Positions 11,327-51,502 of a stretch of 51,698 bases of DNA are shown here, one piece after another; the first letter of the stretch is position 1, and each line of letters opens with the position of its first letter. The stretch is taken from positions 1 to 51,698 of the forward strand of contig JAPLJV010000054.1 of assembly GCA_026388415.1 (NCBI GenBank). Direction: 5' to 3'. The position numbers and the translations under genes were made by a program. The notes below the pieces were generated by a model. That model was given only the letters and a program-made list of their open reading frames with translations. It was not told the origin of the DNA and ran no database searches. Source of the stretch: Deltaproteobacteria bacterium. GTDB taxonomy: Bacteria; Desulfobacterota; Syntrophia; Syntrophales; JACQWR01.

Positions 11327-11367
11327 TATGTTGCCCAATATTGAAAACCGTCCGGACGGCCGCTATT

Positions 11368-11410
11368 AGTAAGTTAGAATTTGCTTTCTTTGCAAATTCA
11401 CTAACTTACT
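11368..11410. repeat. Nested palindrome, copy A of a three-copy family
   Basis: Outer arms AGTAAGTTAG (11368-11377) and CTAACTTACT (11401-11410) enclose inner arms AATTTGC (11378-11384) and GCAAATT (11392-11398). The element fills the ftsL-ftsI spacer. Related elements are at 36952-37010 and 51392-51432 with the same outer AAGTTAG start. Confidence 0.8.
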
Positions 11411-11418
11411 TACCCCCT

Positions 11419-11745
11419 CTATGGGGATTTCAAGTTAACCAACTGTTCTCTTTCCGGGTAGGTCATCTGCAATTTTTCTCTCGCAATGGTTTCAATACGC
11501 TGCGGTGATTTCAACGTGGCATGTTCGATTTTCAGCTTTTCTCTTTCTTCCAGCAGCCGCTGTCTGTTACCCATTTCCTCGGCAACCTTGTACTCCAGCT
11601 CAGTCATGCGTATATGGGGCCAGACATAAAACAGGGGCAGCAACATCACGGCACAGATCACCATGAGGAAGGGAACCTGTTTCAGCCCGAAAACCAATCG
11701 GCCGCCATCATGTACGTTATCTATGGTATGCACTGCCGTCGCCAT
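11419..11745 (-). CDS. ftsL: Cell division protein FtsL
   Basis: Small bitopic division protein that links FtsB/FtsQ to FtsWI. It is 108 residues from the ATG at 11745, two bases after the rsmH stop and with GAGAGGA upstream; a TTG two codons earlier would overlap rsmH. One membrane helix (VPFLMVICAVMLLPLFYVW, about 24-42) is followed by a coiled-coil rich in E, K, L and R (about 47-90). Sequence conservation in FtsL is low, so the call rests on topology, length and its fixed place between rsmH and ftsI. Confidence 0.88.
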   Translation of the reverse strand: MATAVHTIDNVHDGGRLVFGLKQVPFLMVICAVMLLPLFYVWPHIRMTELEYKVAEEMGNRQRLLEEREKLKIEHATLKSPQRIETIAREKLQMTYPEREQLVNLKSP

Positions 11746-28114: not shown

Positions 28115-29152
28115 TCATCCCATGCGGAAGGCCTCCAGCCGTGCTGCGGAAAATTTCTCGTGAACTGAAAAAAAGGTTTCTTCTCCGCCGCAAACCTTTT
28201 TCTTAATCAGATAAGTGTCATGCTCCTCCTGACAGTAGCGGGCCAGAATCTCCCCGACTACGGTATCATCATCGTCATGGCTGGATTCAGGCACGTAGGC
28301 CGTGGGGCCGCGGAAGTCCTCGGGTAGAAAGATAGTCGCAGCGGGGACACCTTTGTTGGAAAGGTGTCCCCACGCCAGCAGGGCAATCTTTTCGTTTTCC
28401 TCGTGATTCCTACCCAGAATTATTTTCAGATCGTTCTCCAGCCGGAAGTGCCGGCCAATTTTCAGAAACTGTAAGTCATTAAAATCATAATCGGGCACGT
28501 GGGCGAAAAGATCGCGCAGTCGCACCGCCATGATGGGATCGGTGAGCATACAGCCGCCTGCCGGGCAGGGATAATCCTTGACCCCCAGGTCCCGGGCCAG
28601 CGCTATCTGCACCTTCCGCGATCTTCCGGAAACAGCCAGGAGCTTCTCCCGATCAACCACGCCCTCCTGCTCTGGCCTCGTCGGGGGAAAATGCTGCGCC
28701 GACAGCGGTCGCAAAATAAGACCGGCCAGGCCGCTTTCCTTTTCGATCAGCTCGATTTGCTGGCGGCGCTGCGACATGGGGCGCTGACCGATTACCTCGC
28801 CCGTGATGACAAAAGACGCCCCCAGTTCGGGCATCATTTCTTTGGCCTTCCTGAGCATGTAGATACGGCAATCAATGCAGGGATTCATGCCCCGGCCATG
28901 GCCATGCGGCGGATTTTCCACGAGCCGCATGTAATCCATGCCCTTCGCGATAACACGGATCGGAATCCCGAATTCACTCGCCACTTTGCCGGCCTGGTGC
29001 TGACAGCCGGCCTTATGGGAGCTGCAATTGCAGAAGGGGCTCGTAAAGTTCAGGGCCGTGACCGCGATCCCCTGGTCAACCATCATCTTGACTGCCAGCG
29101 TGCTGTCCAGGCCACCGGAAAGCAGGGCCAAGGCGTTATTATTTATTGGCAT
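28115..29152 (-). CDS. PP-loop ATP pyrophosphatase, tRNA-thiolation type (ThiI/MnmA-like)
   Basis: 345 residues with the N-type PP-loop SGGLDSTL (12-19) and many cysteines: CNC and C50 near the N-terminus, PCIDC (91-95) and CPAGGC (196-201). It activates a substrate by adenylation for sulfur transfer, probably on tRNA. The C-terminal part (KIGRHFRLENDLKIILGRN, 231-249, onward) resembles an NFACT-R-like RNA-binding end. It is the last gene of the sulfur operon and starts at the cysE stop (TGATG). Residues 261-270 (WGHLSNKGVP) are encoded by a palindromic repeat (28343-28371). Confidence 0.85.
   Translation of the reverse strand: MPINNNALALLSGGLDSTLAVKMMVDQGIAVTALNFTSPFCNCSSHKAGCQHQAGKVASEFGIPIRVIAKGMDYMRLVENPPHGHGRGMNPCIDCRIYMLRKAKEMMPELGASFVITGEVIGQRPMSQRRQQIELIEKESGLAGLILRPLSAQHFPPTRPEQEGVVDREKLLAVSGRSRKVQIALARDLGVKDYPCPAGGCMLTDPIMAVRLRDLFAHVPDYDFNDLQFLKIGRHFRLENDLKIILGRNHEENEKIALLAWGHLSNKGVPAATIFLPEDFRGPTAYVPESSHDDDDTVVGEILARYCQEEHDTYLIKKKVCGGEETFFSVHEKFSAARLEAFRMG
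28343..28371. repeat. In-frame palindrome inside the PP-loop gene
   Basis: Perfect 12-bp arms GGGGACACCTTT (28343-28354) and its complement (28360-28371) around five bases. The GGGGACACCTT core is shared with the intergenic hairpin at 32801-32857. It encodes ten residues in frame and does not break the gene. Confidence 0.75.
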
Positions 29153-32800: not shown

Positions 32801-32857
32801 GTAATTAGGGGACACCTTACTAATTTTTTCAAAATTAGTAAGGTGTCCCCTAATTAC
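32801..32857. repeat. 57-bp hairpin repeat with 27-bp arms
   Basis: Perfect 27-bp inverted arms starting GTAATTAGGGGACACC around a three-base centre (32828-32830). A further partial unit AAGGTGTCCCCTTATTAC follows at 32858-32875 and runs into the metY stop. It sits between metY and cysK in the sulfur operon. GGGGACACC units of this type look REP-like; no transposase is near. Confidence 0.85.
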
Positions 32858-32871
32858 AAGGTGTCCCCTTA

Positions 32872-34946
<2,075 letters not shown>

Positions 34947-36914: not shown

Positions 36915-36951
36915 GCCGTTTCTCTTCCCCTTAGCCCCGCTAACCGGGATA

Positions 36952-37010
36952 AGTAAGTTAACGAAATTATTTCTTGCCGGAAAAACGCAAGAAATAATTT
37001 CTAACTTACT
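36952..37010. repeat. Nested palindrome, copy B of a three-copy family
   Basis: Outer arms AGTAAGTTA (36952-36960) and TAACTTACT (37002-37010); inner arms AAATTATTTCTTGC (36964-36977) and complement (36987-37000) around nine bases. Its right end overlaps the iscS stop codon, so it abuts or invades the gene end. Confidence 0.85.
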
Positions 37011-38175
37011 AACCTGCCTTCTTATAAAGCGGCGAGATGGAACGCAGCTTCTCCGCTATCCCCGGCAGCTCCGCCAGCACCTGATCAATATCTTCTGCCG
37101 AGGTGTGTCTCCCCAGCGAAAACCGCAGGGCGCCGTGGGCAAACTCCGGGGCAAGGCCAATCGCCTTCAGCACGTGGGATGGCTCCGCGCTGCCGGACGA
37201 ACAGGCTGACCCGGAGGAGCAGGCAATACCGCTCATATCGAGTCTCAGGATCATCGCTTCGCCTTCAATATATTGCACGCAGACATTGGCGTTGTTCGGC
37301 AGGCGCTGCGCAGGATGGCCATTCAGACGGGTATACTCTATCCCCGTCAGGATACCCTGGATAAATCTGTCCCGCAGGCGGCTGATTCTTGCCATCTCCT
37401 CGGGCAAGCCCTTCTCTGCCAGCTCCACCGCCTTTCCCAAACCGACGATGCCCGGCACATTATGCGTTGCGGCCCGCCGCCCTCGTTCCTGCTCTCCCCC
37501 ATGCATAAAAGGATTGATCTTGACACCCTTTCTTATATAGAGAATGCCCGTTCCCTTGGGTCCGCACAATTTATGGGCCGAGGCGCTCAACAGCGATACA
37601 CCGAGGTCATCCACGTTAATCGGGAGATGCCCGAAGGTCTGGACCGCATCGGTATGCAACGTAATTTCCCTTTCCCGGGCAATCCGGCCGACCTCCTGCA
37701 AAGGCTGAATACTGCCAACCTCGTTATTGGCGTGCATCACGGAGATCAAAATCGTTTTTTCCGTAATGGCCTTCTGCACATCCGCCGGGTCCAGGATGCC
37801 GAAGCCGTCCACCGGCAGAAAAGTCACGCGGAATCCCTGTTTTTCCAAGTAATGACAGGTCTCCAGGACGGCGTGATGTTCAATTCCCGTTGTAATTATA
37901 TGATCGCCTTTCTCCCGGAGGGCCGTGGCCACACCTTTTAGCGCATGATTATCGCTTTCCGTGCCCCCGCTCGTAAAAATAATTTCCTCCGGTGACGCTC
38001 CGATAAACAGGGCCACCCTGTCCCGCGCCTCTTCTATCGCCCGCTTCGCTTCCTGACCGAAGGAATGCAGACTGGAAGGATTGCCATAAATTTCCGTGAA
38101 GTACGGCAGCATCGCTGCTACTACTTCCGGTTCCATGGGCGTGGTGGCGGCATTGTCGAGATATATACGTTTCAT
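37009..38175 (-). CDS. iscS: Cysteine desulfurase (IscS/NifS family)
   Basis: PLP enzyme that takes sulfur from cysteine as a persulfide for Fe-S clusters, thio-tRNA and FdhD. 388 residues. PLP lysine Lys202 in SASAHKLCGPKGTG, persulfide Cys325 in SSGSACSSGS (same position as in the NifS reference). The IscS-type long active loop is present, so it is not a SufS type. AAGGATGG precedes the ATG. No iscU scaffold gene follows; mnmA does. Its last codon overlaps repeat B. Confidence 0.95.
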   Translation of the reverse strand: MKRIYLDNAATTPMEPEVVAAMLPYFTEIYGNPSSLHSFGQEAKRAIEEARDRVALFIGASPEEIIFTSGGTESDNHALKGVATALREKGDHIITTGIEHHAVLETCHYLEKQGFRVTFLPVDGFGILDPADVQKAITEKTILISVMHANNEVGSIQPLQEVGRIAREREITLHTDAVQTFGHLPINVDDLGVSLLSASAHKLCGPKGTGILYIRKGVKINPFMHGGEQERGRRAATHNVPGIVGLGKAVELAEKGLPEEMARISRLRDRFIQGILTGIEYTRLNGHPAQRLPNNANVCVQYIEGEAMILRLDMSGIACSSGSACSSGSAEPSHVLKAIGLAPEFAHGALRFSLGRHTSAEDIDQVLAELPGIAEKLRSISPLYKKAG

Positions 38176-38190
38176 GATCCATCCTTATTT

Positions 38191-38280
38191 TATATGAAAA
38201 TCCCCCCCATCCCCCCTTTACCAAAGGGGGGGTTAAGGGGGGATTTTCATGTTTCGTTGTGCCCGTGCCGAGCATGGGGG
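38191..38280. repeat. C/G-rich palindromic repeat, copy 1 of 2
   Basis: Arms ATGAAAATCCCCCC (38194-38207) and complement (38237-38250), with an inner CCCCCCTTT..AAAGGGGGG stem, then a tail GTTTCGTTGTGCCCG... to 38280. A near-identical 89-bp copy is at 48262-48350. This copy fills the iscR-iscS spacer and would place a very stable hairpin just before the iscS ribosome binding site. Confidence 0.85.
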
Positions 38281-48261: not shown

Positions 48262-48350
48262 TATATGAAAATCCCCCCCATCCCCCCTTTACCAAAGGGG
48301 GGTTAAGGGGGGATTTTCATGTTTCGTTGTGCCCGCGCCGGGCATGGGTG
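48262..48350. repeat. C/G-rich palindromic repeat, copy 2 of 2
   Basis: Arms ATGAAAATCCCCCC (48265-48278) and complement (48307-48320), inner CCCCCCTTT..AAAGGGG stem, and the same tail GTTTCGTTGTGCCCG as copy 1 at 38191-38280 with a few substitutions. It lies just past the 3' end of the M16 protease gene. Confidence 0.85.
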
Positions 48351-51377: not shown

Positions 51378-51391
51378 TGTGTGCTCCTTAG

Positions 51392-51432
51392 CAAGTTAGA
51401 AATTGTTTCCAACGGAAAACAATTTCGTTAAC
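51392..51432. repeat. Nested palindrome, copy C of a three-copy family
   Basis: Inner arms GAAATTGTTT (51399-51408) and AAACAATTTC (51417-51426), with outer AAGTTA on the left and GTTAAC on the right; the outer stem is shorter than in copies A and B. It lies 15 bases upstream of the M16 start. Confidence 0.7.
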
Positions 51433-51502
51433 GCGCGAGCCTCTTGCAAAAAGAGGGATGATTTATTTTTACCAAAAAATGCAAAATAACATATTGTAAT
51501 TA

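Follow-up and report, generated by a model that had tools for sequence, protein, structure and literature searches.

A mobile two-hairpin element at gene junctions of Syntrophales and other Desulfobacterota genomes

The element and its three copies in the window

The window is the whole 51,698-nt stretch of DNA analysed here (contig JAPLJV010000054.1 of the Syntrophales assembly GCA_026388415.1). Palindromes are present at 11368, 36952 and 51392, all three where the original prediction had placed them, at gene junctions whose neighbours are supported by Pfam as FtsL/FtsI (copy A), IscS/MnmA (copy B) and an M16C/PreP peptidase (copy C). Each palindrome is the large hairpin of one two-hairpin element, which extends further than was first seen and is usually about 60 to 105 bp in length, non-coding and too short to code. 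In one reading direction the element consists of a small GC-rich hairpin, a TAAG linker, a long AT-rich hairpin and the end CTTACTAA. Alignment of the three window copies gives the small hairpin as CCCCGATAAACGGGATAAG or CCCCGATAAACGGG, followed by the linker ATAAG, and the large hairpin as GTAAGTTTACGAAATT or GTGCGTTAACGAAATT, an inner stem with its loop, and AATTTCTAACTTACTAA. The small hairpin sits 5' of the large hairpin and is present in 125 of 140 copies.

Copy A occupies positions 11366..11427 of the minus strand between ftsL and ftsI, scores 66.1 bits with the covariance model and reads CCCCATAGAGGGGGTAAGTAAGTTAGTGAATTTGC...GCAAATTCTAACTTACTAA. Its large hairpin (11368..11410), the palindrome originally noticed, has the inner stem AATTTGC and a loop of 7 nt, and its small hairpin CCCCATAGAGGGG (11413..11426) gives ftsL an in-frame TAG stop at 11419-11421. 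Copy B (36935..37012, plus strand, 84.3 bits) is antisense to the iscS-mnmA operon and comprises the small hairpin CCCGCTAACCGGG (36936..36948) and a large hairpin (36952..37010) with a perfect 15-bp inner stem, GAAATTATTTCTTGC; its last bases write the TAG stop codon of iscS (37009..37011, minus strand). Copy C (51388..51454, minus strand, 53.2 bits) stops 11 nt short of the M16C peptidase start codon, and has the large hairpin GCGTTAACGAAATTGTTTTCC...GGAAACAATTTCTAACTTGC (51392..51434) and a divergent small hairpin (51440..51456), in which CCTCTTTTTGCAAGAGG replaces CCCCG..CGGGG. Folding energies of the large hairpins lie 4.7 (A), 9.4 (B) and 3.3 (C) standard deviations below those of shuffled sequences, copy C having the weaker fold.

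Copies A and C are opposite in orientation to copy B, and once the three are aligned their arms share GTTNACG...CTAACTT[AG]CTAA. The arms of A, B and C that had been noted as a common AAGTTAG outer arm do align, but the stem they form is not fully symmetric, and is short in copy C. The left arm carries 2 to 3 extra bases (AC, TAC or GTG), which form a conserved bulge (GTT-NAC-G / C-T-AAC).

In the 2.79-Mb genome to which the window belongs, the right end TTCTAACTTRCTAA was found with at most one mismatch at 49 sites (4 for the reversed pattern), and the left end GGGATAAGTRMGTTWACG with at most two mismatches at 34 sites (0 for the control); the element is a family beyond chance. A covariance model built from 16 copies recovered at least about 40 full copies at E < 1e-4, a lower bound because the best 150 of 1264 candidates were scored, so the predicted dispersed family has more members than the three in the window. 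Right-end-only copies that lack the left arm also occur in this genome (L008, position 1062; L015 and L025, both near 1500), and few left-only counterparts were found.

Compensatory change in both hairpins

Among 16 hand-picked copies, 13 pairs had changed on both sides, with 41 double-change cells against 14.7 in shuffled data (0/500). An alignment of 112 copies from many genomes gave 17 double-change pairs and 188 cells against 40.3 (0/500); this alignment was fitted to the covariance model, which favours the structure of the model, and sliding the structure by 1 to 3 columns as a control gave at most 32 double-change cells. The inner stem of the large hairpin co-varies, and so does the small hairpin, with 30 double-change cells at one pair, where CG, TA and AT were seen. 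Both hairpins are preserved through compensatory change. The inner arms had been described as variable yet self-complementary, and variation without complementarity had been named as evidence to the contrary; in both sets of copies the arms co-vary far above shuffles. Since the inner arms change but stay complementary, the folded form is either selected or maintained by hairpin templating, which agrees with the proposal of a selected shape or of copying with compensating change. The covariation cleanly illustrates, in a natural setting, that the unit kept is shape rather than sequence.

Mismatches in the inner stem are A.C in 52 cases and G.T in 16 (p about 1e-5). The sign of this asymmetry is the same for copies sense (12:2) and antisense (23:6) to genes, and it is therefore not explained by transcription or by a replication bias linked to genes. 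Should the working form tolerate wobble pairs, it would be the complementary strand. Such a reading of the folded strand is only a hint, because clustering weakens the asymmetry (38:15, and 27:14 with p = 0.06 after stricter clustering) and because the conserved wobble pair in the outer stem of the commonest subtype is G.T on the other strand.

Insertion sites, mobility and gene context

In the logo of 82 deduplicated target sites, positions -5 to -1 read C C T A R (0.47-0.90 bits), and no conservation is seen in the 3' flank beyond a weak A/T preference at its first base. The element inserts precisely, with a CCTAR-like site directly on its 5' side. Of 112 copies, 106 end in CTAA, a figure to which the search itself adds some bias; CCCC is preceded by A or G, and CTA is followed by A in nearly every copy. 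Empty sites place the true ends at RCCCCG... on the 5' side and at CTTACTAA (...CTTAC) on the 3' side, and neither is an inverted repeat of the other. Empty and filled pairs share 2 to 3 nt (TA, TAA or AA), by which the exact junction is ambiguous, and the target duplication is either zero or short (TA). Joined flanks of target sites fold into hairpins no better than shuffled pairings, although nested copies and the site within a host repeat do sit in hairpin loops.

The element is mobile. An unrelated repeat in three Desulfobacterales-type genomes (G100, G101 and G102) is found in about 99 empty copies, ATATGCTCWCTTAA/TGAGCTTTTTGG (in short form CTTAA/TGAGC, the slash marking the junction), and filled counterparts within the same repeat read CTTAR/CCCCG...CTAA/TGAGCTTTTTGG (TGAGC); as the filled sites lie inside one host repeat, several may descend from a single insertion. 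This landing-site repeat (L242-L261) has the ends CTCGTAAAAAGTC...GACTTTTTACGAG and is separate from the element. With copy B in place the iscS-mnmA spacer is 94 nt long; in four relatives that have the two genes adjacent and lack the element it measures -4 to 55 nt, and there IscS terminates at about the usual place. The composite repeats of G064 also occur without the element, in L150. In L013 and L181 one element sits inside another's loop, and a single orthologous locus in five Syntrophaceae genomes carries the arrangements H1-L (L107, L196), H2-S (L128, L140) and H1-[H2-S]-L (L201), which suggests nested insertion together with array contraction. The element can enter, and ride in, other repeats and other copies of itself.

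A module, ACTCTTTTCAGTACCCCCTTGAGGGGT, is found within the large-hairpin loop of some copies and next to the small hairpin in others, and looks like one more exchangeable part (L002, 1504-1590; L022, 375-462; L105, about 67-133; L118).

Whether copies are always intergenic had been posed as a check; most are, with 2 of 82 (7 of 160 in a laxer set) lying inside a called ORF. For 36 copies, an opposite-strand gene on the 3' side terminates exactly at the TAG that the element's terminal CTA forms, and other stop offsets are rare (5 copies at -12). Between co-directional genes, as called by a simple ORF rule, the element is antisense more often than sense (56:32, p = 0.014). The reversed target motif, YTAGG, is met at places where a stop codon leads directly into a ribosome-binding site. 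The stop-codon association would follow from target choice and selection against gene damage, with no special aiming needed. This matters for annotation, since many genes, among them iscS and ftsL of the window, take their stop codon or leader from a copy.

Matches to the covariance model were found in 23 of 100 relatives, which belong to 17 of the 51 genera covered, and, in a sample taken across the phylum, in 15 of 395 genomes. When named genomes were scanned with a pattern, at least 119 stretches were recovered, essentially all from Deltaproteobacteria/Desulfobacterota (Syntrophales, Geobacterales and Desulfobacterales), and the hosts include many sulfate-, iron- and syntrophy-related bacteria. 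Viral contigs, plasmids and phages were also searched and gave no match to the element. The patchy spread points to horizontal spread or repeated loss. The family is a phylum-wide mobile hairpin whose ends and target motif are defined and for which empty sites occur naturally. One contig labelled Candidatus Methanoperedens, an archaeon, carries a copy that lacks the small hairpin (L110), for which transfer and mis-binning are both possible.

Mode of movement and relation to known repeats

Palindrome-associated transposable elements (PATEs) of Haloquadratum walsbyi are tied to IS605-type transposons that share their palindromes, and a 52-bp version consisting of the terminal parts only exists (PMC3119063). 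The element resembles PATEs in being too short to code, in having palindromes near both ends and no terminal inverted repeats, possibly in the lack of a clear target duplication, in the use of a conserved terminal oligonucleotide as target, and in nesting within other mobile repeats (PMC3119063). It differs in that no transposon with the element's ends was found, in that several hosts have no Y1 gene at all, and in phylum and sequence. Its nearest working counterpart is the terminal-only PATE of IS605-type elements, followed by repetitive extragenic palindromes (REPs).

The probable explanation of the observations is a non-autonomous family of PATE/REP-like hairpin elements that is mobilised in trans and probably travels as folded single-stranded DNA. 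We do not assign the family to either class, because the Y1-transposon link by which they are defined was looked for and did not appear. We infer a trans-acting enzyme and a single-strand route, in which the enzyme would recognise the hairpins and the bulge rather than the inner-stem sequence, release the element and insert it after CCTAR. Since the folded hairpins and not the inner-stem sequence would be recognised, the inner stem would be free to drift provided that both arms change together. The intermediate would most simply be folded single-stranded DNA, as for IS200/IS605-type PATEs. Copies would persist where they are harmless, that is between genes, at stop codons and at ribosome-binding sites, and those at gene ends would survive because the element's closing CTA re-creates a TAG stop.

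An alternative, which is rather unlikely, is that the element is of REP/REPIN type and owes its movement to a RAYT or a different Y1 (HUH) transposase, perhaps one that has been lost or that occurs in part of the population. In favour of this reading, REPs, REPINs and BIMEs with RAYTs are likewise short intergenic hairpins with bulged stems, found in arrays and in tens of copies (PMC2817692, PMC3116915, PMC6006769), a long hairpin with a bulge of 1-3 nt and a sequence-specific upstream target are also on record for REPs and IS200/IS605 ends (PMC6006769), and the genome itself encodes RAYTs. The original prediction had pointed to a Y1-type (REP-associated) transposase, and RAYT genes are indeed present, but they are flanked by an unrelated repeat, GGGGACAC...TACTAA, unlike the element. 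Over 100 genomes, a Y1 gene was found in 18 of 23 that bear the element and in 54 of 77 that are free of it, which is no association, and no Y1 gene was found in five element-bearing genomes (G001, with 19 copies; G064, with at least 47; G060; G077; G081). None of the Y1 loci examined was flanked or bracketed by the element's ends, and the only Y1-like gene near an element lies 1.3 kb away (L172). The large hairpin has no adjoining GTAG/GTGG foot, its feet being TAAG and, on the opposite strand, TTAG; the element consists of two unlike hairpins in fixed order, was not found beside Y1 genes and is spread across orders, whereas REPs are species-specific. A RAYT/Y1 driver was rejected on the different repeat at the genome's own RAYTs, the lack of association and the five hosts without Y1. 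That several genomes rich in copies have no Y1 driver makes the question of what moves hairpin repeats without a RAYT directly testable.

Inverted repeats of GGGGACACCTT in the window (28343-28371, 32801-32857 and 32858-32875) are of the same type as those flanking the RAYT (Y1) genes of the genome, and it is these repeats, rather than the palindromes first noticed, that look RAYT-linked. A RAYT gene is cut by the ends of contigs C59 and C50 of this genome (L032, L034), and is probably one gene split by assembly at a repeat.

Other candidate enzymes were sought in nine element-bearing genomes. An IS110 transposase was found in three of the nine and was absent from G001 and G064, and it was rejected as the driver because it is missing from the other six. 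No longer autonomous version, with both ends at a wider spacing, was found among the loci examined. It is conceivable but rather unlikely that the mover belongs to none of the Y1/HUH, reverse-transcriptase and IS110 types and reads the folded DNA shape (small hairpin plus bulged stem), while the stem drifts by paired changes.

It is established that quasi-palindromes can be corrected from a hairpin template. A switch of template inside the palindrome would yield double changes with no need for conserved sequence, and could by itself have produced the matched arms with no selection on the fold. Such repair concerns the covariation only and is compatible with any model of mobility, which it leaves unexplained. 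As the sole source of the matched arms it is unlikely, given that the unpaired bulge is also conserved and that the small and large hairpins are both kept over great distances.

It is doubtful that the element is a MITE of a TA-duplicating DDE transposase (IS630/Tc1-like), with the arms of the large hairpin as terminal inverted repeats and the small hairpin as an acquired passenger. TA is common to both junctions, and the TAA-flanked arms of the large hairpin, GTAAGTT..AACTTAC, do resemble inverted repeats. The small hairpin is, however, co-inserted in the filled sites and present in nearly all copies (125/140), which means that the element's true ends (RCCCCG..., ...CTTAC) do not form an inverted repeat, and the outer bases differ likewise, with A or G before CCCC against almost always A after CTA (CTAA in 106/112).

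An RNA element selected by the host (a hairpin of the 3' or 5' UTR, a terminator or a stabiliser of mRNA) and not a transposon would account for the position at operon junctions beside stop codons and ribosome-binding sites and for the strong covariation. It is nevertheless improbable, as the precise empty sites in an unrelated repeat, the nested copies and the patchy spread need mobility, the mismatch asymmetry is independent of the direction of transcription, and no Rfam family matched above its gathering score anywhere in the window.

Copying by a group II intron, a retron or another reverse transcriptase is scarcely credible, since an RVT_1 gene was found in one of the nine element-bearing genomes and was missing from the other eight, the genome of the window included, and the right-end-only (5'-truncated) copies in L008, L015 and L025 are too few to argue for reverse transcription.

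Several other repeats are comparable to the element, which the preferred reading regards as PATE/REP-like. CGTC-tagged palindromic repeats and RPEs are also short dispersed palindromes tagged at one end (PMC3733652), but the element has the tag CTTACTAA, the target CCTAR and no CGTC end, and that survey contains no Geobacter, Desulfo-, Syntropho- or Pelobacter names (PMC3733652). Intergenic multicopy families based on palindromes have been catalogued in Geobacter genomes, within the same phylum (PMC2996986, PMC2700814, PMC3543383); no transposition model was found in the main text of these reports, and their alignments are in the supplements. A literature search by sequence returned two chance matches in unrelated biomedical papers. 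No description of the element's sequence was found, and a prior listing among the Geobacter palindromic families is possible (PMC2996986, PMC2700814).

Within the window, a C-rich hairpin, ATGAAAATCCCCCCCATCCCCCCTTTACCAAAGGGGGGTTAAGGGGGGATTTTCAT, occurs in two near-identical copies (38194-38250 and 48265-48320) and is another dispersed repeat. The attC sites of integrons are hairpins with extrahelical bases and a variable terminal stem beside a stop codon, and the element is likewise a bulged hairpin next to a stop codon. An attC origin was rejected, as the GTT/AAC cores of the element have the wrong polarity (GTTAACG on the left, CTAAC on the right) and its small hairpin and CCTAR target are without attC counterparts.
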